Part shown: positions 7,004-34,893 of the stretch, piece by piece | Position numbering within the stretch: position 1 is the first letter of the stretch | Layout: every line of letters starts with the position of its first letter | Source of the DNA: Candidatus Peribacteria bacterium RIFCSPHIGHO2_02_FULL_51_15 | GTDB lineage: Bacteria; Patescibacteriota; Gracilibacteria; Peribacterales; Peribacteraceae | DNA length: 35,226 bases | Direction: 5' to 3' | Assembly (NCBI GenBank): GCA_001788965.1 | Contig: MFXU01000051.1 | Location: 1-35,226 of the forward strand | The notes under the pieces: generated by a model | Databases searched by the model: none | What the model was told of the DNA's origin: nothing | Seen by the model: the letters and a program-made list of their open reading frames with translations, nothing else | Translations under genes and position numbers: made by a program

Positions 7004-7942
7004 TCAAACCAAAAACCCCCTCTTCATATCCAGCTTCTGCGAAGAGACGATCTTTTTGTTTTCCATTAATTTCACTTCCCAGCTCAGATTAATCTTTACT
7101 TTCAATCTGGTATCCGAGACCAGCTTCAGCCGCAATTTTTGTCCCGGTTTTATCGGAACCGGTTCTAAAAGCGGCAGATAAATCTGTTCCCAATGCGTCG
7201 GCGGATCATGGGGACCGGTTGAGAGATTTATTCCCGGTACCAATTCGGCATTCCACCATAAAGCGAAACCGTAAACGTTGTAGAGACGCCCCGCCGGGGC
7301 GTCTCTACCATCGGATTCCCAAGTTACCGAGGCCTTCCTAACACTCGAGTTCTTCTTTTTAAAATCTATCTCATCCCATTTCTTCGCACTGATAATTTCT
7401 TCGGGACGGATTTTTTTGACGTATATGTTGTTAAGTGCGATTTCCCGGGCTTCCTTCATGTCCAGATCGTAACCCACATCGGCCATCACATCGATTTCTT
7501 TTTGTAAGCGATCCGAGATTACCGGTGCGACGAATTGTTCGATCCGGCCCGGGATTATGATTCCGCCTGGTTTCAGAAACCGCTTGGCGTCCTCAATGAT
7601 CTCGATGATGTTTTCCTCCAGTGCGTAATTTCCAAGTATCTCGGCGACCATCATGTCCGCCGGCCCGGCCTTCGTCACGTCCATCGAATGTTTGTTTATA
7701 AACGTGCAATTTTTGATTCCGTTACTCATGGCCAGTTTACGGCTGACACCGGATATATCACCGTAATCAATCAAAGTGCAATGCTTCGCTCCCATTCTGG
7801 AAGCCAAAAATGAAAGAAAGCCGGTGCCCGAACCGACATCGACGATTGTCGTCTTCCCGGATTGTACTGATTGTTTTAGGGCTCGATAGAAGGCTTCGTT
7901 GCGCACCTTGTCACCCAGTAATTTGCGTTGAAGCTCAATCAT
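7004..7942 (-). CDS. PRMT-like class I SAM methyltransferase
   Basis: A 312-residue protein with the layout of protein arginine methyltransferases. It has an AdoMet motif I (VDVGSGTGFLSFLA), a motif II acidic residue (TLIDYGDISG), a double-E-like loop (AEILGNYALEENI) with two glutamates, then LKPGGIIIPGR, and a C-terminal beta-barrel carrying a THW loop (PPTHWEQIYLPLLEPV). Together these are hallmarks of PRMTs, which methylate arginine side chains and are uncommon in bacteria. A perfect palindrome is embedded in frame at residues about 212-221. I start at the Met at 7942; the 40 codons upstream are a translation of the GGTAAGG repeat hairpin. Substrate unknown; methylation of another target cannot be excluded. 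Confidence 0.75.
   Translation of the reverse strand: MIELQRKLLGDKVRNEAFYRALKQSVQSGKTTIVDVGSGTGFLSFLASRMGAKHCTLIDYGDISGVSRKLAMSNGIKNCTFINKHSMDVTKAGPADMMVAEILGNYALEENIIEIIEDAKRFLKPGGIIIPGRIEQFVAPVISDRLQKEIDVMADVGYDLDMKEAREIALNNIYVKKIRPEEIISAKKWDEIDFKKKNSSVRKASVTWESDGRDAPAGRLYNVYGFALWWNAELVPGINLSTGPHDPPTHWEQIYLPLLEPVPIKPGQKLRLKLVSDTRLKVKINLSWEVKLMENKKIVSSQKLDMKRGFLV
7280..7308. repeat. In-frame palindrome within the PRMT-like gene
   Basis: A perfect inverted repeat with 13-bp arms (GTAGAGACGCCCC/GGGGCGTCTCTAC) and a 3-nt loop, translated as roughly GRDAPAGRLY. An intergenic member of the same family lies at 33269-33297 (GTAGAGACGTCC/GGACGTCTCTAC). The copy keeps the reading frame and lies between two conserved strands of the barrel domain. 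Confidence 0.8.
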
Positions 7943-10418: not shown

Positions 10419-10590
10419 GTGGCACGGCCGTCCCGGCCGTGGGGGCATGGGCGTCCCCGCCCATGCGAAAATTCGGGCGAATCAAAACCGAAGCTTTCGC
10501 ACGGGCTGGAAGCCCGTGCACCCATGGGCAAGCCCGTAAAGGCCGCGTGGCGGCCCACGTGCCGCTTTACGCGGATGCCCATGCCACATC
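10419..10590. repeat. REP cluster family A between the ATPase gene and P1
   Basis: Contains GTGGCACGGCCGTCCCGGCC, GGCATGGGCGTCCCCGCCCATGC in part, GCACGGGCTGGAAGCCCGTGC, and an AAGCCCGTAAAGG/GGCGGCCCACGTGCC segment ending in CATGCCACATC. Outer ends GTGGC and GCCAC are inverted. With the P1 3'-end vestige it fills the 365-bp gap, in which I see no gene. Confidence 0.75.
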
Positions 10591-13310: not shown

Positions 13311-13456
13311 TGATGTGGCATGGGCATCCTGCCCATGGGGACACGGGCTTCGAGCCCGTGTGAAACACCGACGGAGGATAGTATCCGATAAATTCGGGAA
13401 CAAATTTCGCATGGGCGCGACGCCCATGCCACCACGGCCAAGATGGCCGTGCCACA
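13311..13456. repeat. REP cluster family A between TrmB-like and DUF5667-like genes
   Basis: Elements GTGGCATGGGCATCCTGCCC, CACGGGCTTCGAGCCCGTG, GCATGGGCGCGACGCCCATGC and CACGGCCAAGATGGCCGTG, again bounded by inverted GTGGC/GCCAC. It closely matches the cluster at 1462-1601 and fills the gap between convergent genes. Confidence 0.8.
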
Positions 13457-15129: not shown

Positions 15130-16815
15130 TCAATAGACTTCTTTCAAATAGCATTCCTCGCAAAAAACCCTCTCCTGCCGTTCCGGTGAATAGCTCGTCT
15201 CAATCGCTTGCCCGCATTTGTCACACTCCCGGTCCCAGAGCTTGCGGGGATTTCTGAGAGCCATACGCCGCCTGTGCCGCTCGTCCGGATGGAAATGCGG
15301 GACTGGAAGATCCATCCTCCGGTAAAAATCCAGCTCCTGTTTCACGATCCTGAAAGGCCGTTTCGTGGCTTCGCATTCGATCGCCCAGTTCAGGATATCG
15401 TCGGGGATTTCGTCGATATTCGCCTGCAAGTCTTTAGCCAGAATGATTTTGGAAACCTGAGGCGCTTCATCCGTTTCATCTTTCCATTTCCAACCCCTCT
15501 TCAAGACCTCCTCTTTCGTAAGCGGAAAAGCTTCCTCCGCGACAGTTTCATTGTAGGCAAAAAGTGAAAGCTGCACCGGTGGAAACTCACCCCATTCCCC
15601 AGATTTCCGCATTTGATCGATAAGTTTCGGAACAAGAGTCTCATATTCATCCCGGCTGTATTGCCTGTTCAAAATACAATACTTCTTATGGTGAAGATTC
15701 ACGCAGCCAAAACAATTTTCACAGAAATGGCAGTTGTAACAATAAAAAATATCCTTGTCCCCGTAACCCCAGTTACCGAAAAGGCAATGATATGACCCGA
15801 TGCCGTAATTGTTGCACTCATAAAGCAACTCGGCCGGCAAGCCAAAGAATGACACATCCATGCTTTCTTTTACGTCAGCGATAAATTGGCAGTGCGCGCA
15901 ATCCTGGGACTGACGGGTATTGAAACAGTCCCGACAATTTTGCGATTCATAAATGTAGTTGCCGGTGCAGTTTTCAGTCATCCGCTGATATGACCAGGGC
16001 ACCGGAATCTTTATCAGCAATTCTTCGAAAGATTTTTGGAGTGCAGCTTGCGCCTCAGGATTTGTCAGAAGATTTTTCAGCCGTTCTTCATATCCTTCTT
16101 TCGTGAGCCTTTCATTTAACCAGCAATACGAAGCGTTTCTCATGCCCACGCAGCCGACACAATTGGTGCAATTCAGGCAGTAAGCCAGATAGCGGCTCGT
16201 CTGGCAGTTCGCCGAGGTCCGGCAGTAGGTCAGATCGTAACCGCGGAAACATTCGTTGCATTCATAGCAGCGTTCACTCCGGCGTACGCTGGAACAGTCG
16301 ATGCATGACGTGGAGTTTTGGATCCAGTAACTGTAGAGACAGTCTTCATTGAAACTGCCGCAAAAAAGCATGTAACAATTTTTGTTGTAGGTCGCGTTGT
16401 GCGTGTACTCGCTGTTTTCGCTGTTTACGTTCAGCAGATTGATATGCGGTGTGACACCGATCAGGTGCTTTAGCTGATCGAAAAAAGGTCTGGAAAAATT
16501 AACCGGTTCTCCGAAATCCAAACCGTCCCAGCTTTCCGACCACCAGGCCGGATTTTCATAAACGATATTGGGTTTATCCGGAGAAAAAGCCGAAACCATT
16601 TGTTTTCCGGTTTTATCGCACTTTCTATGGTAAAGCTTGCGCTCATTTCGGAAGGCCAGCCGCCTCTGATACCTGCAATCCGGACATAATGTCGGGGGCG
16701 GGATCAATTCTTTTTTCCCGTTGAAAACCGGAGAAACGGATTCGTAAAATGCTAGGTCGCTGTCGGTTATTTCGAATTCAGTTCCACACCAGGGGTTTGC
16801 ACAAGTACGTATCAT
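15130..16815 (-). CDS. Cys-rich two-module protein P2 (unknown function)
   Basis: 561 residues with the family layout. N-terminus MIRTCANPWC (C-x4-C form), LCPDCRYQRR, module A ending GCVGMRNASYCWLN, module B starting ENCTGNYIYESQNC and ending GCVNLHHKKYCILN, then GEWGEFPP, RNPRKLWDRECDKCGQ and the terminal CEECYLKEVY. The reading frame is open 57 codons further upstream, but that part is a translation of a REP and of the end of the transposase gene, so I start at 16815. The start overlaps the RAYT stop (TGATG), which would couple the two, and its own -10-like TAGATT lies 13 bases upstream. Function unknown. Confidence 0.85.
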   Translation of the reverse strand: MIRTCANPWCGTEFEITDSDLAFYESVSPVFNGKKELIPPPTLCPDCRYQRRLAFRNERKLYHRKCDKTGKQMVSAFSPDKPNIVYENPAWWSESWDGLDFGEPVNFSRPFFDQLKHLIGVTPHINLLNVNSENSEYTHNATYNKNCYMLFCGSFNEDCLYSYWIQNSTSCIDCSSVRRSERCYECNECFRGYDLTYCRTSANCQTSRYLAYCLNCTNCVGCVGMRNASYCWLNERLTKEGYEERLKNLLTNPEAQAALQKSFEELLIKIPVPWSYQRMTENCTGNYIYESQNCRDCFNTRQSQDCAHCQFIADVKESMDVSFFGLPAELLYECNNYGIGSYHCLFGNWGYGDKDIFYCYNCHFCENCFGCVNLHHKKYCILNRQYSRDEYETLVPKLIDQMRKSGEWGEFPPVQLSLFAYNETVAEEAFPLTKEEVLKRGWKWKDETDEAPQVSKIILAKDLQANIDEIPDDILNWAIECEATKRPFRIVKQELDFYRRMDLPVPHFHPDERHRRRMALRNPRKLWDRECDKCGQAIETSYSPERQERVFCEECYLKEVY

Positions 16816-17531
16816 CAAATTCCGGAAGAATCTAAGAGTGTCGTGGCATGGCCGTCCCGGCCATGGGGACACGGGCTTTGAGCCCGTGCGAAAAAATGAT
16901 CTAAATTTTCTTTTTTCAATTGTTCCTCCGGTATTCGCCATCTCCATTCCCAGTTTTTTAGTCCCGCGAGTTCGGGATTGCTCCAAGTGTATTCGATACT
17001 GTAGTCCAGCTGCTCCTGTGACCGTATGAGCCTGTCAAAGTACTCGCTTTGCCAAAATTGGCCCCGTTTCCCAAGTAGTGCGTTGGACCTTTTGGCTGAG
17101 AATGATTTCCAGGAACAAACGATCGAGGAAAGTGTATGTTCGGAAAACGGCTGTACCACGACATGCACATGATTCGGCATCACGCACCATGCAAACAAGC
17201 GGTAACGCTGACCTTCGAAAAAACGCAAAGCTCCTGCGATTTCCTTTGCAATATTTTCCTGCTTCATCCAACAAGCCCCATGACCACCTCGCAGGAAACG
17301 GTCTACTGACTCCGAATGCAATTTCAGCAGTGCAAGTCTTTCCTGGTAGGTCAATTCACGTTTTTGCCTTTGAGCCATCATTATTATGTCTCTTCGTTCA
17401 TTTTCCCACTCCCTGATTTTTTCCTGTGGAACCGAGTCGCACAACCTGAAACGTAAACAATAGATTCCACCGAGTTTGCTCCAATGTGGCAGATAGGCAC
17501 CCCGCCGTTTCTGGACTATTGAGCTTTCCAT
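16815..17531 (-). CDS. REP-associated tyrosine transposase (RAYT, Y1 family)
   Basis: A 238-residue single-strand DNA transposase of the IS200/IS605-related Y1 class. The HUH pair is in VMPNHVHVVVQ (H121, H123), GQFWQSEYFDRLIR lies before the active site, and the probable catalytic tyrosine is Y181 in YTWSNPELAGL. Such enzymes bind and mobilise REP palindromes. The gene is bracketed by inverted family A REPs (16839-16893 and 17551-17602). The first of these lies inside its 3' end, so residues of about 213-231 are REP-encoded. A TAGAAT box ends seven bases before the ATG at 17531; the open frame upstream is REP translation. It is probably the enzyme responsible for at least part of the REPs in this genome, by inference. 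Confidence 0.88.
   Translation of the reverse strand: MESSIVQKRRGAYLPHWSKLGGIYCLRFRLCDSVPQEKIREWENERRDIIMMAQRQKRELTYQERLALLKLHSESVDRFLRGGHGACWMKQENIAKEIAGALRFFEGQRYRLFAWCVMPNHVHVVVQPFSEHTLSSIVCSWKSFSAKRSNALLGKRGQFWQSEYFDRLIRSQEQLDYSIEYTWSNPELAGLKNWEWRWRIPEEQLKKENLDHFFARAQSPCPHGRDGHATTLLDSSGI
16839..16893. repeat. REP pair inside the RAYT 3' end
   Basis: TGTCGTGGCATGGCCGTCCC and a following CACGGGCTTTGAGCCCGTG. The outer TGTCGTGGCATG is repeated in inverse orientation at the far side of the transposase gene (ends about 17602), as expected for a REP-RAYT unit. Confidence 0.8.
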
Positions 17532-17550
17532 TGTAAAGATTCTACAACAC

Positions 17551-17602
17551 GCATGGCCGCAACGGCCATGTCCCCATGCCCGGGACGGGCATGCCACGAC
17601 AT
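17551..17602. repeat. REP pair upstream of RAYT, inverse to 16839-16893
   Basis: GCATGGCCGCAACGGCCATG followed by CATGCCCGGGACGGGCATG and GCCACGACA. It sits between the RAYT promoter and the P3 stop. Confidence 0.8.
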
Positions 17603-19539: not shown

Positions 19540-19631
19540 GCCCATTCGACGAGCTCAGGGTGAATCGTGTTGTTTCGGCAGAAAATGGATTGAGCTGATC
19601 TTCAGTACACTTCTTTCAGGTAACACGATTC
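19540..19631. repeat. 92-bp 3'-end unit at P4
   Basis: Nearly identical to 33330-33420 (one base longer, about three further differences). From left: a REP-like CATTCGACGAGCTCAGGG, GAATCGTGTT, about 40 bases, the stop and last nine codons of the P gene, and AACACGATTC. The 10-bp GAATCGTGTT/AACACGATTC are perfect inverted repeats, and the identity between copies stops right after the second one. Confidence 0.7.
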
Positions 19632-21302
19632 ACAAACCACTTTTTCCGGCCGCTCCGGCGAATAGCTTGTGGTTATTGGCTTTTGGCAATTGGCACAATT
19701 CCTTTTCCAGAGCTTTCGCGGATTCCGGAGAGCGCGGCGGGCCGCATGCCGGACTTCGAAATGCCAGCGCGGAACAGGGACTCTGAGGCGCCGGTACAGC
19801 TCCAGCTCGGCTTTCTGCAATCTGAAAGGTTTCCTGGTTTTTTCGCATCGGATTGCCCAGTTCAAAATATCATCGGGGATATCATCAATTGAATCAGGTA
19901 ACTGCGATGCCTCTATTACCCGAGTCACATTTAACGGCTCATCTACTTGATCGCGCCATTTCCAGCCCCTTTTCAGGACTTCTTCCCGGGGCAGTGGATA
20001 GTAATCCTGGGCCACGGTCTCGTTGTAGCCGAAGGCGGAAATTTCGGGAGGAAAGAAATCGCCCCATTCTCCGTCGGTTCTCATGCACTCAACGATTTTG
20101 TGAACGAGCTCCGAATATTCGGACTCACTATATTTCTTGTTCAAAATACAATGAGAGTTCTTTTTGATAGCCGTGCAACCGAAAAGATTGTTGACGCCGG
20201 TCATGCAAAAAATCGAAGAGATCACATTGCTGGCATTGAGTGCAGTGTAATAACACCCGATAAGATTTTGGGACCCCGCCCCGATATAAGCGCAGTTATA
20301 GGCCAGTGTCAGGCGGTCGCCCCAGGCATCGACATCCTGGCAATCCTGACCGCCCATCATACAGCCGGTGCAGAAGCGGCAATCCCGCATGCCGATGCAG
20401 TCGAAACAGTAGCTGGAATCTTTGCAGCTCAGGATATTGTCGCCAGTTGCGTTTTCGTTCATCACGCCGCGCAGGGCCTTCCCAGGATGTTTCAGAAAAT
20501 TTTCCAGCGCCAGTGCTTTGAGCTGCCGGACGCCTGAATGAGTATGGAGATTCATGGCCGCTTTGCGCTTCAAATAGTCTTCTTTAGAAAACGGCTCATT
20601 GAAAATGTAATACTCCTTCTGAACCAGATTCACGCAGCCGATACAGCTTTTGCAGGAAACGCAGTCGAGCAGAAAAACCGACTCGGAACAATTTTGGCAG
20701 AAACTTGAATACCTCAGATCGAAACAGTTCTGGCAATGGATGCATTCGTAGCAGAGCTCCGATTCAGTCAGGTAAAGAAAGTCGCAGCAATCCTTCATTT
20801 TTACGTAACACTCGCCATAGAAACAATCCTGTGCCTGCTCGCCGTCGAAGATGAAATAGCAGTTTTTCAGACGGTAACCGTCATGCGTGTAATCGCTGTT
20901 TATATCGTCTTTGAAACGAAAAGTCGACATCTTCGGTATCGCGGCATAGAGCTCGCCAAACTGCTCGAAAAAGGGCCGGTTTTGATCATAGGCACGGCCG
21001 AAAGAGAGCGGGTCCCAGTTGTCTCCCCACCAGCATTCGGGGCAATAGACGGCATGCGGACCGTCCGGCGTGTAGATGGAAATTATTGGACGCTTACAGA
21101 GATCACAGGAACGTTTGTATAGATTACGCTCGTTTCGTTGAGCCAGTCTCCGCTGCTGACGGCAGTCATAACAAAGCCGGGGCGGCGGAAGCGCAAGCTT
21201 TTTTTCACCGATTACCGGGGAAACTTTGTCGAGAAATTTTAGGTCGCTTTCGGTGACCTCGAAGGACGCTTGACACCATGTATTTGAGCAGAGTTTTCGC
21301 AT
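19602..21302 (-). CDS. Cys-rich two-module protein P4 (unknown function)
   Basis: 566 residues. N-terminus CSNTWC and LCYDCRQQRR, then VYCPECWW. Module A (INSDYTHDGYRLKNCYFIF...CVSCKSCIGCVNLVQKEYYIFN) and module B (ENATGDNILSCKDSSYCFDC...NLFGCTAIKKNSHCILN) are both complete. Hinge GEWGDFFP; C-terminal RNPRKLWKRNCANCQ, CESCYLKEVY. The last nine codons and 3' flank are shared almost base for base with P9, evidence of recombination between distant paralogs. Leaderless-type promoter TATAAT at 21310-21315. No function can be assigned. Confidence 0.85.
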   Translation of the reverse strand: MRKLCSNTWCQASFEVTESDLKFLDKVSPVIGEKKLALPPPRLCYDCRQQRRLAQRNERNLYKRSCDLCKRPIISIYTPDGPHAVYCPECWWGDNWDPLSFGRAYDQNRPFFEQFGELYAAIPKMSTFRFKDDINSDYTHDGYRLKNCYFIFDGEQAQDCFYGECYVKMKDCCDFLYLTESELCYECIHCQNCFDLRYSSFCQNCSESVFLLDCVSCKSCIGCVNLVQKEYYIFNEPFSKEDYLKRKAAMNLHTHSGVRQLKALALENFLKHPGKALRGVMNENATGDNILSCKDSSYCFDCIGMRDCRFCTGCMMGGQDCQDVDAWGDRLTLAYNCAYIGAGSQNLIGCYYTALNASNVISSIFCMTGVNNLFGCTAIKKNSHCILNKKYSESEYSELVHKIVECMRTDGEWGDFFPPEISAFGYNETVAQDYYPLPREEVLKRGWKWRDQVDEPLNVTRVIEASQLPDSIDDIPDDILNWAIRCEKTRKPFRLQKAELELYRRLRVPVPRWHFEVRHAARRALRNPRKLWKRNCANCQKPITTSYSPERPEKVVCESCYLKEVY

Positions 21303-25206: not shown

Positions 25207-25231
25207 AAGATACAGTTTACACGACGAAAAA

Positions 25232-25376
25232 TGTTAAATTGCTAAATTGTTAAATTGTTAAAAATACATTCTTAAAAACTTGCGCTCCGCTTGCTTGCCG
25301 GCCGTAGCCTTCAAAACGGATAGTAGAGTGGAAATTGGCGAAGGCTGGCGAACAATTTAGCAATATAGCAATCAAA
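25232..25376. repeat. AAATTGTT/AAATTGCT word hairpin between P6 and livM
   Basis: Left arm 25232-25260 (degenerate TTAAATTGCTAAATTG units) and right arm 25348-25376 (its approximate complement) enclose about 87 bases. The right arm touches the livM stop. The same words form hairpins at 27133-27204 and 28485-28567, all within the transporter cluster. Confidence 0.65.
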
Positions 25377-26226
25377 CCGTTCTCGGCACCGGGAAAAGCT
25401 TCTCGCGACGAAGATAAACGGCAACCAGTAAAATCATCCCGAAAACGATCAATCTGAGCGGACCCAGAGCACCGGAGGGAAAAGGCAGGAACCTGATGGC
25501 CTCCTTCAGAATCGTAAGCAAGATGCACGAAAGAGCGACTCCGGGTATGCCGCCCCCCATGCCGGCGACGATGAACATTATGTACATGATCATGAAATAA
25601 AACGTGAGGTCGCTCGGATGCACCAGCCCGATGTATTGCGGATAAAACAAATTGGCCAAAACCGAACCGACCGCGCTCAGTACAAAAACAGTCGTATAAA
25701 CCTTTTCACGACTGATTCCGAGACTCCGGGCGTGGGAGGGATTTTCGGCAAGCGCCGTAAGTCTCCGGCCGAGCGGTCCACGGTCGATCTTCCAGAGAAA
25801 AAATCCCCAGATCAACGCAACAGTCGAGGTAACCAGGGCGAAATAACGTGGATCTCCAAGCCCGGGTGCGCGGGGAATGTGAGCGATGCCCATGGCGCCG
25901 CCGGTCAGGTCGATCCAATTCAAAACAACCGCCAGCAACGCGAGGTGCAATGCGATAGTCAAAATGCCGAAGCTGTCAGAGTCCAGCCTGAAAGCCAGCC
26001 ATGAGAAAACGAGCGCAAGCAATATCGCAATGCCCAGACCGGCGATAAACCCGAGAAAATACCCACCGCCGTTCATAAGCACCAGAAAGATCCCATACGT
26101 CGAAACAAGAGAAGTGCCCATAATTCCGAAATGCAATATTTTTCCACGCCCGAGTATGAGCCCGTAGGGCAGCCCGTTCATCAGAACGACGGAAATGGAA
26201 ATAACCAGATGCAGGAAAAAATTCAT
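25372..26226 (-). CDS. livM: Branched-chain amino acid type ABC permease (LivM-like)
   Basis: A 284-residue multi-span permease of the LivM class, which forms half the membrane channel of branched-chain amino acid (or urea/amide) importers. There are eight or more hydrophobic segments; the family's AENPSHARSLGIS loop is visible (usual form ENPxxAxxxG), followed by FVLSAVGSVLANLFYPQYIG and GGIPGVALSCILLTILKEAI. I start at the ATG 26226, one base after the livH stop (TGA-T-ATG); a TTG three codons upstream would overlap. Substrate cannot be fixed from sequence. Confidence 0.85.
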   Translation of the reverse strand: MNFFLHLVISISVVLMNGLPYGLILGRGKILHFGIMGTSLVSTYGIFLVLMNGGGYFLGFIAGLGIAILLALVFSWLAFRLDSDSFGILTIALHLALLAVVLNWIDLTGGAMGIAHIPRAPGLGDPRYFALVTSTVALIWGFFLWKIDRGPLGRRLTALAENPSHARSLGISREKVYTTVFVLSAVGSVLANLFYPQYIGLVHPSDLTFYFMIMYIMFIVAGMGGGIPGVALSCILLTILKEAIRFLPFPSGALGPLRLIVFGMILLVAVYLRREKLFPVPRTV

Positions 26227-26227
26227 A

Positions 26228-27103
26228 TCAGGCAAAACGGGATGTCCGGCCGAAAAGGCCGGTCGGTTTTATAAGAAGCAAAACTATGATCAGCATCAAG
26301 GCCACGGAACCCTGGTATCCGGCCGGCAGGTAATATCCGAACCATTTGATGCCGACGGCCAGCTGTTCGATGGCGGCGATGAAATAAGACGCTATCACCG
26401 CTCCCCAGATGTTGCCCTTTCCGCCGGCGATGAGGGCGGCATAGGCTTTGATAGTTATGGTAAAGCCCAAAACCGGAGTCAGGTTCTGGTCTATGCCCAC
26501 ATAGATTCCGGCTATCGCCGCCAGCGTTCCGGAGATGATGAATACCAGGCGGTGCAGGAGGGCCGAAGAAATCCCCAGGCTTTCGGCTGCCTGACTGTGC
26601 GCGACAGTTGCCCGGATCCGGCGGCCAATGGAAGTGGAATGCAAGATCCAAGCGGTGGCCGAAAGCAAAACAACTGTAAAGATGATCAATTTGATCTGCT
26701 CCATCGAAATCACCGCTGAGCCTAAATGAACCATTTCTTTGGCGCGGATCAGTATGCTGCGCGTCTGCTCCTTGAAAATCAGCTGGATCAAACCGTCCAG
26801 GATCTGCGAAAGCGCGATGGTCGAGACGAGCGGCAGGAGCGGATGACGCTTATAAAATGGCCGGACGGCGATCTCGAACGATAGCCATGAAACCAGTGCG
26901 CCGCAGACGATCCCGCCCAATATGCCGACGGGCAGCGGAAGCCCCAAAGGCTGGACCAGCCACCAGGTGACATATCCGCCCACCAGCGCAAATTGTCCCA
27001 GAGCGAGATTGAAGACCCTCAGCACACCGTAAACCAGCGCCAGCCCCGTTGCCATGATCGCGGCGAAGGAGCCGGCAATCAACGTATTAACGAGAAGCTG
27101 CAT
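26228..27103 (-). CDS. livH: Branched-chain amino acid type ABC permease (LivH-like)
   Basis: A 291-residue LivH-class permease partner. The characteristic N-terminus (NTLIAGSFAAIMATGLALVY then GVLRVFNLALGQFALVGGYV) and the cytoplasmic loop HSQAAESLGISS are present, with about eight hydrophobic helices. It is directly followed by livM on the same strand with one base between. A TATACT box (27113-27118) lies nine bases upstream of the ATG, so it probably starts the livH-livM transcript. Confidence 0.88.
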   Translation of the reverse strand: MQLLVNTLIAGSFAAIMATGLALVYGVLRVFNLALGQFALVGGYVTWWLVQPLGLPLPVGILGGIVCGALVSWLSFEIAVRPFYKRHPLLPLVSTIALSQILDGLIQLIFKEQTRSILIRAKEMVHLGSAVISMEQIKLIIFTVVLLSATAWILHSTSIGRRIRATVAHSQAAESLGISSALLHRLVFIISGTLAAIAGIYVGIDQNLTPVLGFTITIKAYAALIAGGKGNIWGAVIASYFIAAIEQLAVGIKWFGYYLPAGYQGSVALMLIIVLLLIKPTGLFGRTSRFA

Positions 27104-27132
27104 GTGAGTGAGAGTATACAGAAATTGTCAAA

Positions 27133-27204
27133 CTGCTAAATTGTTAAATTGTTCGCAAGCGTGATGCGCGGTTGCCTGCCAGCAATTTAACAATTTAGCA
27201 ATGT
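27133..27204. repeat. AAATTGTT-word hairpin between livK and livH
   Basis: Arms at about 27133-27153 and 27182-27203 are complementary with few mismatches and enclose a GC-rich loop. It sits after the livH promoter (minus-strand view: before it), downstream of the livK stop, consistent with a terminator or spacer hairpin. Confidence 0.65.
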
Positions 27205-27229
27205 TCCAGCTATTCCAAAACCCAGGAAA

Positions 27230-28354
27230 TCACTGCAGGGAGATTTCTATATCCTCAATTTCCACGATCTTCCCGTCCCGGAATTCCTTCAGCGCGTAAC
27301 CGATCCCCACTACGTCCCCGTTTTTGTCGAAGGATATCGTGCCTGCCGCGCCTGCGTAGTTCATGTTGTAAAGGGCGTCTCTCAGAGCTGCGCCGTCAAG
27401 AGTTGGAACCTGTTTCAGAGCTTCGGCCAGCACTCCGGCTGAGTCGTAGCCGAGGGTGGCGTAACTCAGGTTGGCCTTTGGCTCGCCGTATTTCGCGCGG
27501 AATTTCGCGGCGAAAGAGTCGGCTCCGCCTTCGCCCAGCTTGTTTGAAGTATTGATCACCCGCATGCCCTCCACTGCCTCAGGAGCCAGCTGACCCATCG
27601 TGGCCGAATCGGAAGTGTCGGAGCCGGCAAACGGCTGCTTGATTCCAAGTTCCCGGGCCTGCTTGACCATTTCCACGTTTGTCGCATCAGTTTGCCCGTT
27701 GATGAAAATCACATCGAAGTCTGTATCCTTCAGTCTTGTAAGAAGCGATCGGTAATCCTTGGTACCCTGGTCAACCAGCTCATCGAAGGCGAGGGAAGCG
27801 CCAGATCCCATAGTGTTTTTCACCGTGGTCCGAAGCCCCTGGCAAAAATCTGTGTTCTCGGTGATGATGCCTATCTTTTTGTAACCCTCGCGCTCGAAAT
27901 ATTTACTTAACTCTCGGCCTTTGTTCGCGTCGCTCGGAGACGCGCGGAAGACATAGTCTCCCGCGTCGGTGACCGCCGGAGCCGTCGAGATCGCCGAAAG
28001 CAATATCATCTTCGCGGGTTCGGTCACGCTGGCGGCAGCCAGAGTTTCGGACGAGCAGACCCCGCCGAGTATGGCGGCGACTTTGTCGATATTGACCAGT
28101 TTCTGCGCCGCGGAGGTGGCGTCAGAGCCATTGCATTTGGCGTCCTCGCTGACCAGCTCGATTTTTTTTCCGTTCACTCCTCCGGCGTCGTTTATTTCAT
28201 CTATCCTGAGACGAATAGCATTCAAGTTGTCCTGTCCGTAAGACTGCCCGTCACCGGTGAGCGGCCCGATGGTGCCGATTTTTATGACATCTTTGTTCGA
28301 TGCGCAGGCAGCGAAAAACAAAGCGCCCGACACGACAAATAATTTCTTATTCAT
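27230..28354 (-). CDS. livK: Branched-chain amino acid type substrate-binding lipoprotein (LivK/LivJ-like)
   Basis: A 374-residue periplasmic-binding-protein type I lipoprotein. The signal peptide MNKKLFVVSGALFFAAC ends in a lipobox with C17, so it is secreted and anchored to the membrane. The mature part begins KIGTIGPLTGDGQSYGQDNL, typical of LivK/LivJ, with the first-lobe GGVCSSETLAAASVTE segment and hinge-like YDSAGVLAEAL near the C-terminus. It would deliver an amino acid or related ligand to LivH-LivM. Ligand unproven. It lies between the permease genes and livG, separated from each by AAATTGTT-word hairpins. Confidence 0.9.
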   Translation of the reverse strand: MNKKLFVVSGALFFAACASNKDVIKIGTIGPLTGDGQSYGQDNLNAIRLRIDEINDAGGVNGKKIELVSEDAKCNGSDATSAAQKLVNIDKVAAILGGVCSSETLAAASVTEPAKMILLSAISTAPAVTDAGDYVFRASPSDANKGRELSKYFEREGYKKIGIITENTDFCQGLRTTVKNTMGSGASLAFDELVDQGTKDYRSLLTRLKDTDFDVIFINGQTDATNVEMVKQARELGIKQPFAGSDTSDSATMGQLAPEAVEGMRVINTSNKLGEGGADSFAAKFRAKYGEPKANLSYATLGYDSAGVLAEALKQVPTLDGAALRDALYNMNYAGAAGTISFDKNGDVVGIGYALKEFRDGKIVEIEDIEISLQ

Positions 28355-28484
28355 AAATAAGCGGGGAGATAAATAAAGCGCGATTCATTTTACTCATAAT
28401 AAGGATTAATAGAATTGACAGATGAAATTTTATTCATAAGAAAAAATCTGGCTTTAATAATCATTACTAGAGTTTTTGGGAACA

Positions 28485-28567
28485 TTGTTATATTGCTAAA
28501 TTGTTAAATTGTTGACGCAAATCCATGTGTCGCTTGCGAACAATTTAGCAATATAACAATTTAACAA
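28485..28567. repeat. AAATTGTT-word hairpin between livG and livK
   Basis: Perfect 21-bp arms (28485-28505 and 28539-28559) within longer degenerate repeats. It is the most perfect of the three hairpins and lies downstream of the livG stop. The remainder of the 250-bp gap is AT-rich, with no gene seen. Confidence 0.7.
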
Positions 28568-28607
28568 TTCCTCTGACATTGATTAAACGACCGCAGTTCA
28601 CCCGAAT

Positions 28608-29342
28608 TTAAGTAACCGGGTCCGCCCCGAAATAAATCTCTTTCAGCTTCGCATGCGAATGGATTTCTTCCGGTTTGCCTTCCAGGACTTTTTCGCCGAG
28701 ATCGAGAACGATCACCCGATCGCAAATCCTGCGGATGAAGGGCAAATCATGCTCGATAATCAGTATCGTCCGGCCTTCTTTTTTAAGTAACCGGATGAGG
28801 TCCGAGATCTGGCTGGTCATTTTCGGCGATACGCCGGCCGTAGGTTCATCGAGAAGCAACAATTCCTTGCGGGCGGCGAATGTGCGAGCCAGCTCCAAAA
28901 GGCGCATCTGCCCGCCTGAAAGGCTGCTCGCTTTCTTTTTTGCGCAATGGTCGAGGTCAACCAACTTCAGCGTTTCGTTGACCTTTTTTTTCAAATCGCC
29001 GAGCGCCGTCCGCTGCTCTTTCGGAAGCGACTCAAACGCTACCAGAACATTGTCAAAAAGGGTCATGTCGCGAAAAATGCCGAAGTTCTGGAAGACCCGG
29101 CCGATGCCGATGCGCGCCCGCAGGCTCGGGGGCATCGTTGAAATATTTTCTTCCCGGAAGAAAACGGATCCCGAAGTCGGTTTCAGGAAACCGGAAATCA
29201 CGTTGAAGAAAGTCGTTTTCCCGGAACCATTGGGCCCGATGAGCCCCACCACCTCGCCGGGCTCGACATCCAGATCGATACCATGGAGTATTTTCTGCGA
29301 CTCAATCGTGAGCGAGAGATTTTTGACGGAGAGGAGAGGCAT
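28608..29342 (-). CDS. livG: Branched-chain amino acid type ABC ATPase (LivG-like)
   Basis: A 244-residue ABC ATPase. Walker A GPNGSGKT, signature LSGGQMRLLELART, Walker B LLLLDEPTAG, H-loop IIEHDL. The LivG-type features are GRVFQNFGIFRDMTLFDNVL and the C-terminal EGKPEEI. It powers uptake together with LivH/LivM. A second ATPase (LivF) is not in the window; LivG may work as a homodimer or with a partner elsewhere. The start at 29342 is preceded by TGGTAATAT (extended -10) with a seven-base gap, so I reject the Met three codons upstream. Confidence 0.9.
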   Translation of the reverse strand: MPLLSVKNLSLTIESQKILHGIDLDVEPGEVVGLIGPNGSGKTTFFNVISGFLKPTSGSVFFREENISTMPPSLRARIGIGRVFQNFGIFRDMTLFDNVLVAFESLPKEQRTALGDLKKKVNETLKLVDLDHCAKKKASSLSGGQMRLLELARTFAARKELLLLDEPTAGVSPKMTSQISDLIRLLKKEGRTILIIEHDLPFIRRICDRVIVLDLGEKVLEGKPEEIHSHAKLKEIYFGADPVT

Positions 29343-29436
29343 CGGGCCCATATTACCAGAATTAATAAGCGGTGATTCGTTCTCGGATCAATTCCAAAAC
29401 TACGGGAAATTTTTCAGATGTTTCACGACTCCTTGG

Positions 29437-29667
29437 TCGGGACACGATGTCCCGATTTGAAATAAAAGATCCCGCAGCCGGGGCATCGTGCCCCGGTGAG
29501 GCAATCGATCAATGTCTCCAATGGATCAAGCAATGCTGGAAATTTGACCGATATCCACAGCCAATCGAGCACGTCTTTGACGAAATTCTATGTTTTACGG
29601 CTTTGAGGAGCATCGTGCTCCGCCAGCGATCATTCATTTTCCCGGCTAAACTGGGACACGATGTCCC
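29437..29667. repeat. Cluster of GGGACACGATGTCCC-type palindromes
   Basis: Four short palindromes centred on CACGATG or CATCGTG: 29437-29455, 29478-29496, 29607-29621 and 29653-29667. Further members are at 33192-33210 and 33230-33248. They have varying arms but a common core. The gap between livG and P7 (about 340 bp) contains nothing else I can support. Confidence 0.75.
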
Positions 29668-29683
29668 GGCTGCGGGTAGCAAT

Positions 29684-31402
29684 TTAATAAATTTCTTTCA
29701 GGTAGCAATTTTCGCAATAAATCTTCTCTCCTCGGGAGCCTGAGGGCTCCTCGGAGCCTCGAACGGCCGGCCGCTCGGGGGAATATGTCGACTGCACCGC
29801 CTTGCCGCATTTCTGACACTTTCTTTCCCACATTTTTCGAGGATTCCTAAGACTTCGAACGGATTTCAGGGAACAGAAAAAACAATCAACCGAAAGCGGC
29901 AGATTCAACTGCCGGTAAAGCTTCAGCTCCTGAGGCAGGATCTTGTAATTTTTGCCACAGTCGCGGCAGCTTAAAATTTCTTTTGTAATCGAATCGGGGA
30001 CCTCTCCGATTTCATCCGGAAGCTCCGCCGTGGCTTTAAGCGTCTCTTTCGGATCCTCATCATGCCATTTGTATCCCCGCTTCAGTGCTTCTTCGCGGCT
30101 CAAGTGATAGTAATCGTGGGCAATGGTTTCGTTATAAGAAGCGTACGACATTTCGATGGGGAAAAACTCGCCCCATTCACCGGTTTTCTGCATGTGGCTG
30201 ATAATCTTTGCGGCCAGTTTTTCGTAGTCCTCCTTGGAATACTGCTGGTTGAAAACGCAATATTTTTTATTCCGGACACCGTGGCAGCCGAGCATGTTTT
30301 GGGATGAGCGGCAGTGCATCGAATAAAACTGGGACGAGGCGTTGCTCAAAACGTAAGCCGTGCCGATCAGTTCATTGGCGCCGTAACCGCAAACCGAACA
30401 CTCATAAAGCCGCTCACCCTCTCCGCACTCCTGGGTATCCATGCAGGTTTTGAGCGGCATGAAAGCCTGGAAACAGTAACGGCAATCCCAGAGCTCGGAG
30501 CAGTCGAAGCAGTAGTAGGAATCTTTCGATTGGGTTACGTAATCTCCGACGACATTCTCGTTTTGGACGCCGTGCACGTATTTCTGGGGATATTCCAGCT
30601 TTAGCTTCTGAAACCGCGCCTGGGCTGAGCTAAGGCGTGAAGCCGAAGTCATCAAATCCCGGATCCGGTCAAACTCCTCCCTGGTCGCTTGTTTGTTTTC
30701 GATCATGTATTCCTTGTTTCTGAGGTTTGAGGACATCAGGCAGTGCCGGCAGCCGACGCAGTTTTTCAGGAACATGCTGTCCGAGCAGTTCTCAGAGTCC
30801 TGGAGATATGCCGAGGCATAACAATTGAGGCAATCGATGCAGCCGATGCAAAGCTCGCTTTTCCTGACCCGGTAACACCCGCTGATATTGATCGAACCGT
30901 TTATGCTGTAGGAGTAATAACAGTCCCGGTTCTCGTCGGAGTCGAAAATCATGTAGCAGTTTTTGTTTTTTCCGGCGTTATTCGTGTACTCGCAGTTTTC
31001 ATCCAGGTTGTAAGCCGTGAAAAGCGCCGGCCAGGGGCAGACGTCCATCAGCTCTTTGAATTGCGGGAAGAAAGGCCGGTTGAAATCGAAATCGCGTCCA
31101 TACTGAAGCGGATCCCAGCTGTCTCCGAACCAGATATCCTGCTTGTAAACCTTGTAAGGACTTTCGGGCGGAAAAATGGCGACTATCGGCTCACCCGAGA
31201 AGCTGCAGGTTCGCTTATAAAGCGAGATGTGATTTACGTATGACGCCCGGCGCTGCTGCCGGCAGTCGACACACAAGGTCGGCGGCGGCAAAGAGATAAC
31301 CGTGTCACCGATTTTGGGGGATAGTTTTTCGAGAAACGACAGATCATCCTCCGAAACCGTAAATTTTTGTCCGCACCAGGGGTTTTGGCAGGTACGCTGC
31401 AT
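29684..31402 (-). CDS. Cys-rich two-module protein P7 with in-frame palindrome insert (unknown function)
   Basis: 572 residues. N-terminus CQNPWCGQKF, PPPTLCVDCRQQRR. Module A (CEYTNNAGKNKNCYMIFDSD...CVGCRHCLMSSNLRNKEYMI) and module B (ENVVGDYVTQSKDSYYCFDC...NMLGCHGVRNKKYCVFN). Hinge GEWGEFFP, RNPRKMWERKCQKCGK, terminal CENCYLKEIY. Between SPERP and EKIYC lies an extra AVRGSEEPSGSRG (residues about 546-558) encoded by a palindromic 39-bp insert inside the C-terminal Cys ribbon; P9 has the same. TATAAT at 31410-31415 ends seven bases before the start. First paralog beyond the transporter cluster. Confidence 0.86.
   Translation of the reverse strand: MQRTCQNPWCGQKFTVSEDDLSFLEKLSPKIGDTVISLPPPTLCVDCRQQRRASYVNHISLYKRTCSFSGEPIVAIFPPESPYKVYKQDIWFGDSWDPLQYGRDFDFNRPFFPQFKELMDVCPWPALFTAYNLDENCEYTNNAGKNKNCYMIFDSDENRDCYYSYSINGSINISGCYRVRKSELCIGCIDCLNCYASAYLQDSENCSDSMFLKNCVGCRHCLMSSNLRNKEYMIENKQATREEFDRIRDLMTSASRLSSAQARFQKLKLEYPQKYVHGVQNENVVGDYVTQSKDSYYCFDCSELWDCRYCFQAFMPLKTCMDTQECGEGERLYECSVCGYGANELIGTAYVLSNASSQFYSMHCRSSQNMLGCHGVRNKKYCVFNQQYSKEDYEKLAAKIISHMQKTGEWGEFFPIEMSYASYNETIAHDYYHLSREEALKRGYKWHDEDPKETLKATAELPDEIGEVPDSITKEILSCRDCGKNYKILPQELKLYRQLNLPLSVDCFFCSLKSVRSLRNPRKMWERKCQKCGKAVQSTYSPERPAVRGSEEPSGSRGEKIYCENCYLKEIY
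29729..29767. repeat. 39-bp in-frame palindromic insertion in P7
   Basis: Contains GGAGCCTGAGGGCTCC flanked by CTCGG/CGAGG arms. It adds 13 residues between the two Cys pairs of the terminal ribbon without breaking the frame. P2 to P5 and P8 join the flanking codons directly. Confidence 0.8.
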
Positions 31403-33191: not shown

Positions 33192-33297
33192 CACGGGCAT
33201 CGCGCCTGTGTGTCAGTTTCACGTGATCACCGGGACACGATGTCCCGGTTGCGGAATCGCGATGATCCGTAGAGACGTCCGATTCGGACGTCTCTAC
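33192..33297. repeat. Palindromes between P9 vestige and P8
   Basis: 33192-33210 (CACGGGCATCGCGCCTGTG), 33230-33248 (CCGGGACACGATGTCCCGG) and 33269-33297, the intergenic sister of the palindrome embedded in the PRMT-like gene. Confidence 0.75.
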
Positions 33298-33329: not shown

Positions 33330-33420
33330 GCCCTTCGACAAGCTCAGGGTGAATCGTGTTGTTTCGGCAGAAAATGGATTGAGCGGATCTTCAGTACACT
33401 TCTTTCAGGTAACACGATTC
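33330..33420. repeat. 91-bp 3'-end unit at P9
   Basis: Near-identical to 19540-19631. It includes the REP-like CTTCGACAAGCTCAGGG, inverted GAATCGTGTT/AACACGATTC, the P9 stop and its last nine codons. The flanks differ completely between the two loci outside the unit. Confidence 0.7.
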
Positions 33421-34893
33421 GCAATACACCTTCTCTCCTCGGGAGCCTGAGGGCTCCTCGGAGCCTCGAACGGCCGGCCTTTCGGGGGAATAAGTTGTGG
33501 CGATCGTTTTTTTGCAATTGGCACAATGCCTATCCCAAAGCTTTCTCGGGTTTCTCAAGTTCATTCTTTCCATATGCCGCTGATCGGGGCATTTCCGCGG
33601 AAGAGGAATTTTTCCTTCGCGATAAAACTTGATCTCCTGCGGAATCAGTTTGAACGGCTTACCGGTTTCTTGGCAGGTGAGGATCTGGTTGCAAATCGCA
33701 TCCGGAACTTCACTTATATTGTCGGACATCTTGAATGACGGACCTAGGTAGCTTTCCTTATTATTCTCGGCTTCATGCCAGGCCCATCCCCGTTTCAGGG
33801 TCTCGGATTTACCCAAAGGATCATGGTTCTGGGACAAAGATTCGTTGTAGGCGAAAACGCTTGTTTCCACCGGGAAAAATTCACCCCATTCTTGCCCCGC
33901 GAAGCTGCCGTCAGGCAAGCGAAGTGGGGTCACCCGCATGTGTTCGATGATTTTCAACACTAGTTTTTCATATTCATCCTTCAAGTATTGTTTGTTCAAA
34001 ATGCAGTATTCGTTTTTCTTGAGACCCGAACAGCCGAAACAATTTTTGCTCGGGAAAGAGTCATCGCAATAAGTCAGGTCGCTGCAATTGGTCCAGCAGA
34101 TATTGCAAAACCGCAGATTGAAAAGGTCGTAGCCGCAAGCCATGCATTCATAAGTTTGCTCCGCGTTTCCGCCCCAATACGAGTGATCCATGCAATTTTT
34201 GGCGTCATACAGGCACATCGAATATCGGACGTCCTCGCACCGGTCGCACTCGAAAGACATGTGGCAGTTTTTACAGTTTCGTAAGTAATCCCCGGAGCAA
34301 TTTTCCGCGTTCATACCGTGGTAAAACTTGGCGATCGGACCTGGGAGTACTTCTTCGACTTTGGTTTTGATTTTTTCGATCACGGCATGGCTGCCGGTAT
34401 CCACCTGCCGGATAAAATCCTCGTATTCCGCTTTGGTTTTTTGTTCGTTGAATATCACATACTTTTTGTTTATCAGATTGCTTCCGCTTTTTAAACGGCT
34501 GGCGCATTGGCAGTCTTCGCTGTTTTCCATCGGCAGCTGCTGCTGCAATGCAAGCCGCGGGGTTGCATTCCGGAGTTCGGTGAATTGTTCGAAAAAAGGC
34601 CGGTTGAAATCAAACGGGCGTCCGGTGCTCAGTGGATCATATTTGTCGCTCCACCACGCATCGATGGAATAGACGATCTGCGGTTTGTCCGGCGAAAAAG
34701 CGGAAATGATCTGTTTGCCGGTCAAATCGCATTTCCGGTAGTACAGAAATTGCTCATTTCGATGCGAAAACCGCCGGATCATCCGACAGAAATAACAGAG
34801 AGTCGGTACGGGCACCTGCATTTGATCCAAAAATTCTTTATCCTTCGGCAGGATTTCGAAAGACAGCGAACATTGGCGGCAAGTTTTTTGCAT
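33391..34893 (-). CDS. Cys-rich protein P9, module A mostly deleted, two in-frame inserts (unknown function)
   Basis: 500 residues, the shortest paralog. N-terminus CRQC (C-x2-C as in P1), TLCYFCRMIRR. Where others have the full Cys ladder of module A, P9 jumps from ENSEDCQCASRLKSGS straight to NLINKKYVIFN, a loss of about 80 residues. Module B is intact (ENCSGDYLRNCKNCHMSFEC...NCFGCSGLKKNEYCILN). The hinge EWGEFFP carries an upstream insert of about 11 residues (PLRLPDGSFAGQ). The terminal ribbon has the same 13-residue insert as P7. Ends CESCYLKEVY. TAATCT (34900-34905) ends six bases before the ATG. It shares its 3' end with P4 and its insert with P7, so it appears mosaic. Confidence 0.84.
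   Translation of the reverse strand: MQKTCRQCSLSFEILPKDKEFLDQMQVPVPTLCYFCRMIRRFSHRNEQFLYYRKCDLTGKQIISAFSPDKPQIVYSIDAWWSDKYDPLSTGRPFDFNRPFFEQFTELRNATPRLALQQQLPMENSEDCQCASRLKSGSNLINKKYVIFNEQKTKAEYEDFIRQVDTGSHAVIEKIKTKVEEVLPGPIAKFYHGMNAENCSGDYLRNCKNCHMSFECDRCEDVRYSMCLYDAKNCMDHSYWGGNAEQTYECMACGYDLFNLRFCNICWTNCSDLTYCDDSFPSKNCFGCSGLKKNEYCILNKQYLKDEYEKLVLKIIEHMRVTPLRLPDGSFAGQEWGEFFPVETSVFAYNESLSQNHDPLGKSETLKRGWAWHEAENNKESYLGPSFKMSDNISEVPDAICNQILTCQETGKPFKLIPQEIKFYREGKIPLPRKCPDQRHMERMNLRNPRKLWDRHCANCKKTIATTYSPERPAVRGSEEPSGSRGEKVYCESCYLKEVY
33436..33474. repeat. 39-bp in-frame palindromic insertion in P9
   Basis: Same sequence and same position in the C-terminal ribbon as the P7 insert, giving residues about 474-486. 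Flanking codons are also almost identical to P7, so the segment may have been copied between the two genes. Confidence 0.8.
33892..33927. repeat. 36-bp in-frame insertion in P9 hinge
   Basis: Encodes PLRLPDGSFAGQ (residues about 323-334) where all other paralogs have one or two residues between HM..T and EWGEFF. The DNA is an imperfect palindrome (CCCCGCGAAGCTGCC against GGCAAGCGAAGTGGGG). Confidence 0.65.

Follow-up and report, generated by a model that had tools for sequence, protein, structure and literature searches.

Insertion of a 39 bp palindrome into zinc-ribbon paralogs

The 35,226 nt stretch analysed here (the window), from Candidatus Peribacteria bacterium RIFCSPHIGHO2_02_FULL_51_15, contains a 39 bp palindrome that interrupts a cysteine-rich protein, P7, in frame. 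Paralogs from two genera have this segment at a single shared codon, with no recombination tract visible around it. The relevant features of the window are as follows.

29729..29767, minus strand: 39 bp in-frame palindromic insert in P7, GCCGTTCGAGGCTCCGAGGAGCCCTCAGGCTCCCGAGGA, encoding AVRGSEEPSGSRG
29684..31402, minus strand: P7 host gene, from a large paralog family; 572 amino acids, Cys-rich, with a treble-clef-like zinc ribbon at the C-terminus
33436..33474, minus strand: second 39 bp insert, identical, at the same codon of a paralog
33391..34893, minus strand: second host gene, 500 amino acids, paralog of P7
31480..33303, minus strand: insert-free paralog between the two carriers, with the empty site PKRP/EKVVCE

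An initial annotation had placed a 39 bp hairpin in frame between the Cys pairs of P7, and we found its position, length, frame and peptide to be as described: AVRGSEEPSGSRG separates the two C-x2-C pairs of the last zinc ribbon and splits RP from EK. P7 and the 500-amino acid paralog are 44% identical across their C-terminal part (P7 residues 215-572), and in the window paralogs other than these two carriers RP is joined directly to EK or ER. A search for GGAGCCTGAGGGCTCC in the 1,183,743 bp of the organism's own genome returned two copies (at most one mismatch), both of them the window inserts; a third was found neither as an exact or one-mismatch match nor by a covariance-model search of the same 1.18 Mb. 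The fold energy of the 39 bp hairpin as DNA is ordinary for its composition (z = -1.36; 19 of 200 shuffles equally stable) and its context is GC-rich, so the hairpin alone is weak proof of an element and its stability was rejected as evidence for one.

The same codon is occupied in a second genus

About 15-18 members of the host family are present in the organism's own genome, and relatives have up to dozens. Among the 74 genomes of the family-level group, the palindrome was present in just one other, Ca. Peribacteraceae bacterium STD1_181 (G047), where three copies occupy the same codon (ERP/EK) of three different paralogs. These match the window insert at 38-39 of 39 positions, with one copy differing by one base. 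The earlier statement that the element is shared by two paralogs and absent from the others thus holds within the window but not overall, where five paralogs of two genera carry it at one codon. The 39 bp are unchanged between carriers while adjoining synonymous sites have diverged, and among about 80 further intact tails almost all are of insert-free length. An exact-pattern scan of 84,980 species genomes, from which records very near the window's genome may have been omitted, returned the STD1_181 copies only, and viral contigs contained no exact copy. The exact scans pointed to a gene-specific insert, a reading overturned by the mismatch-tolerant search of the class described below.

A FastTree phylogeny was constructed from 154 family proteins, with the inserts removed before building. 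The five carriers require five changes on this tree, all forced by branches with support of at least 95, and shuffled carrier labels gave 5.0 changes, so the carriers are as scattered as random. P7 lies beside insert-free genes of two genomes (G022 and G048), the carrier P9 beside an insert-free gene of G048, and one STD1_181 carrier (C18) beside an insert-free gene of G069 and the insert-free window paralog P4 (21525-23315). No deep-branching member with a diverged version of the insert was seen among the 154 proteins.

A dispersed palindrome family in Patescibacteria

When three mismatches were allowed across 353 genomes of the class, four further copies appeared: one in frame in ribosomal protein S20 (G347), one in GMP synthase and one intergenic (both G087), and one in the linker of the Der GTPase (G072). 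A first covariance model, built from nine copies, gave 50 matches in 22 of the 353 class genomes, some places being matched on both strands, and a second model, built from 36 copies, gave about 56 distinct places in 19 genomes. The second model also matched 20 of 380 genomes sampled evenly across the phylum. Copy number is low, at 1-14 matches per genome. The element is dispersed in relatives, but not in the organism's own genome, where the search proposed by the initial annotation gave two copies.

The family is ~36-40 bp long with the consensus GCCGTTCGAGGCCCTGAnGGGCCCTCAGGCCCnGAACGGG, and the subtype nearest to the 39 bp insert is GCCGTTCGAGGCTCTGAGGAGCCCTCAGGCTCTCGAAGAG. Its architecture is X-TGAN-X'-CTCA-X, in which X' is able to pair with either X, and this pairing is kept by compensatory changes in the subtypes GGCTC/GAGCC, GGCCC/GGGCC and GACCC/GGGTC. 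Covariation scores were 0.262 and 0.304 versus 0.149 and 0.147 for shuffled data (0 of 500 shuffles as high), and structures slid along the alignment reached at most 0.15. One alignment row (G024) has an error in its left flank, which lies outside the paired core. Direct repeats of at least 7 bp border 10 of 43 copies on both sides, where 1.3 would be expected with mismatched flanks (maximum 5). Many of these repeats are 7 bp words, for example ACTTCGG (der) and AAACCAG (uppS), and they could represent either duplications of the target or word arrays that were already present; none of at least 7 bp was found at the zinc-ribbon copies. As a separate observation, tandem arrays of 7-14 bp words (ACTTCGG, AAACCAG, TGGTTAG, AAGTGCGAGTCTCA and TTAAATTG) surround or replace palindromes at loci L109, L131, L134, L143 and L183 and at window positions 25226-25267, and also occur within coding loops of MnmA and UppS.

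In-frame copies in unrelated genes

Copies of the family lie in frame and without stop codons in unrelated genes, at loops, linkers or termini. The insert falls inside a Pfam-matched domain in UppS, MnmA, an FtsJ-like methyltransferase, asparagine synthase, two alpha/beta hydrolases, DsbD_2 and the anticodon-binding domain of ArgS. It lies between domains or at their edges in Der, GMP synthase (GuaA; two genomes, at different sites), GT4 and GT2 glycosyltransferases, a carbamoyltransferase, an alpha-2-macroglobulin-like protein and a 6-phosphogluconolactonase-like protein, and at termini in the C-terminal tail of S20 (rpsT), the N-terminus of a DEAD helicase and the C-terminus of a POR subunit. 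Another member of the zinc-ribbon family (G347:C45) also has a family copy. Both strands and several frames are used, giving the peptides AVRGPEGPSGPER, QPFEALMDPQAQNG, SRSGPEGPSGPRTA, PVQGLRTPQGLER, LREPEGSSEPRTA and others, and the remaining copies are intergenic or in short or uncertain open reading frames.

Alignment with solved homologs of UppS, MnmA, FtsJ and GuaA showed the inserts to be extra segments that these homologs lack. UppS of the same genus has no palindrome but a ACCAGCCG word array at that place, and MnmA of the same genus has a different word array in the same loop, which indicates that these loops are generally permissive and fast-changing. The mnmA gene with the insert is the sole mnmA copy found in its genome.

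For P7, the last 150 residues were modelled with AlphaFold2 from a 17-row alignment (mean pLDDT 74.7, pTM 0.43). In this model the insert forms a low-confidence loop leading from the strand at residues 113-116 to the last helix at 142-149, with a pLDDT of 53-58 that falls below 50 at residues 130-135. As modelled, the 13 residues should be tolerated in the zinc-ribbon loop, and they are probably translated, disordered and near neutral. Pfam analysis of the host family yielded weak treble-clef hits only, and NCBIfam nothing above cut-off.

Origin of the five zinc-ribbon copies

All five zinc-ribbon copies have GGCTCC together with CTCCCGAGGAG, while the rest of the subtype shows GGCTCT and, in most copies, CTCTCGAAGAG. 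These shared derived letters point to one source and hence to one original insertion. Across flanks of 24-48 bp, the carriers were no more alike than other paralogs of the same genome (the fraction of other pairs at least as alike was 0.18-0.91) and no conversion tract was visible around the five inserts, so flank identity lends no support to long-tract gene conversion. Flanks without a shared tract leave either very short recombination tracts or repeated insertion of the same subtype at one codon, and since no tract is visible, it is the shared derived letters that carry the copying step. Very short tracts are tentatively favoured over repeated insertion at the same codon.

We consider it likely that a short (~36-40 bp) REP/RPE-like palindromic family of Patescibacteria gave rise to the insert as one of its in-frame copies, and that the paralog copies arose via short-tract recombination. 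The family would spread as a small selfish DNA element, and coding insertions would survive only if they preserve the frame and place the peptide in a tolerant loop, which here connects the final strand of the zinc ribbon to its final helix. From a single original insertion in the zinc-ribbon family, very short-tract recombination may then have carried copies to this codon in further paralogs, and across species, with the flanks of each recipient kept.

The main competing explanation is that an active element homes to one codon as a site-specific target and inserted there on five separate occasions. The flanks without a conversion tract and the scatter of carriers on the tree would both fit, as would the repeated acquisition of different palindromes at one codon or loop elsewhere in the gene family. 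Against this, the letter set of the five copies is found in no other copy, and the subtype occurs nowhere else, either in the 84,980 species genomes (with the nearest records perhaps omitted) or in the organism's own genome, whereas a homing element would be expected to have copies elsewhere; we therefore regard homing as unlikely. Descent from an ancestral segment lost in most members, which the initial annotation had itself named as the reading that would undermine an insertion, would account for the shared position in two genera but fails on the tree: the five carriers are scattered, each beside insert-free orthologs, so that many precise 39 bp losses would be needed, and so high a DNA identity does not fit an old segment. 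We judge ancestry to be extremely improbable.

Selection on the hairpin or peptide, as an RNA or DNA structure or a protein tag, would explain at the DNA level why the 39 bp stayed identical beside diverged synonymous sites and why hairpin pairing is kept by compensatory changes. It is very unlikely given that the many unrelated genes occupied by the element family have it on both strands, in several frames and with differing peptides, and that most paralogs have no insert. An ordinary low-complexity loop or chance palindrome would agree with the unremarkable fold energy, but its probability becomes negligible in view of the 39/39 identity in divergent paralogs, the three same-codon copies shared with another genus and the covarying dispersed family.

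RAYT-like transposases as candidate mobilisers

The window also encodes a candidate transposase, which is accompanied by palindromes of a second type.

16815-17597: RAYT-like Y1 transposase gene (PF01797, with a sub-threshold match to the NCBI REP-associated tyrosine transposase)
16847-16888 and 17552-17593: palindromes of the CATGGCCGTCCCGGCCATG type flanking the RAYT-like gene

A RAYT-type transposase is a candidate only as mobiliser of the element. The palindrome that flanks the window RAYT, CATGGCCGTCCCGGCCATG, is not the 39 bp element, and Y1 transposases are weakly associated with the element, being present in 15 of 17 element-bearing versus 38 of 57 other genomes of the family. No Y1 transposase was detected in G013 and G056, two nearly complete genomes with several element copies each, so the idea of RAYT as a required mobiliser has no support. 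The CATGGCCGTCCCGGCCATG-type palindromes recur in the window in sets of two or more (1470-1593, 10423-10519 and 13319-13451), as a REP/BIME-like family.

Comparison with known palindromic elements

Palindromes in coding sequence have their precedent in the Rickettsia palindromic elements (RPEs), which measure 105-146 bp, and in those of Wolbachia, for which no mobilising enzyme is known either (review PMC2229807). Like RPE-1 and the other Rickettsia and Wolbachia elements, the Patescibacteria family consists of dispersed palindromes with an open reading frame, in frame in unrelated and often conserved genes as well as intergenic (PMC2229807). In relatives it lies at several unrelated loci, though not within the organism's own genome, and it interrupts genes that have insert-free conserved homologs. 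By description it is not RPE-1 proper, a 105-146 bp element of Rickettsia (PMC2229807): it has a 36-40 bp core with three segments, X-X'-X, its hosts are Patescibacteria, and several members of one paralog family have identical copies at a single codon. The likeness to in-frame palindromes of Rickettsia that the initial annotation proposed is therefore borne out in kind, although such palindromes have also been published from outside Rickettsia, as Wolbachia elements and as intragenic REPs of several species (PMC2229807, PMC3733652), and the RPE-like idea for the 39 bp insert is largely right.

REPs of the GTAG and CGTC superfamilies are likewise palindromic repeats of 20-40 bp, some of them intragenic and in frame (PMC3733652). 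Intragenic examples have been described in many species, including RPE-4/RPE-6 of R. conorii, and REPs occur at about the same recB site in two Xanthomonas species (PMC3733652). Unlike these, the present family has low copy number per genome and no conserved GTAG/CGTC tag; the element ends in G[C/T]CGTTCG, with CGTC in a minority subtype only. It resembles REPIN/RAYT systems in being short palindromic mobile DNA whose host genomes frequently have a Y1 HUH transposase, with a RAYT-like gene in the window, but differs in that this RAYT is flanked by another palindrome and in its weak association with Y1 transposases.

No report of such elements in Patescibacteria was found in the literature searched, where absence is no proof, and this family of tiny repeats is apparently undescribed. 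The Peribacteria genome paper records that twelve proteins differ between strains by indels of tens of bp, and does not mention palindromes (PMC4736985). Coding palindromes were formerly thought peculiar to Rickettsiales and some REP-rich genomes, a range that a Patescibacteria family, in frame across the phylum in the essential genes rpsT, argS, der, guaA, uppS and mnmA, would widen. It would also provide dozens of natural insertions that keep the frame and have insert-free relatives, on which protein insertion tolerance could be tested, and would offer streamlined small genomes a route to new protein segments.

Other palindromes around the Cys-rich family

The 500-amino acid paralog carries a further insert.

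33895..33927, minus strand: different in-frame palindrome-like insert in the loop before EWGEFF, CCACTTCGCTTGCCTGACGGCAGCTTCGCGGGG, encoding PLRLPDGSFAG

This loop is an insertion hotspot in 11 of 154 family genes, where several inserts are palindromic and have differing stems but a similar peptide (TPLR.PD.SFAGQ). At the codon CE/xCYLKEVY, 17 of 152 family genes have palindromic elements of 70-105 bp that supply a new C-terminal tail and stop, the old tail codons remaining just downstream (window 19542-19646, 33331-33435 and downstream of 10702; also L054-L093). The downstream arm of these elements is the reverse complement of the first bases of the new tail (GAATCGTGTT...AACACGATTC and GAAAATTGCT...AGCAATTTTC) and is followed by CCCTGAG...GTCGAAKGGGCGA; the third residue of the new tail is S, N, R or T, never E. 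Taken with the 39 bp insert at ERP/EK in five genes, the tail-replacing elements and the varied palindromes before EWG prompt the speculative, somewhat doubtful suggestion that the C-terminal codons and one internal loop are preferred landing sites, and that the elements serve as mobile coding modules through which paralogs are remodelled in different species.

Two sites, window 7280-7308 and 33269-33297, hold long palindromes of the form GTAGAGACG...CGTCTCTAC that end in GTAG, and intergenic palindromes (GGGACACGATGTCCC, GGGGCATCGTGCCCC and GGAGCATCGTGCTCC) lie by P7 and its neighbours at 29437-29496, 29634-29675 and 33213-33254. The region 10702-34893 is a tandem array of Cys-rich zinc-ribbon paralogs, which reach dozens of copies in some relatives, and is broken by a set of genes resembling a branched-chain amino-acid ABC transporter (25372-29351).
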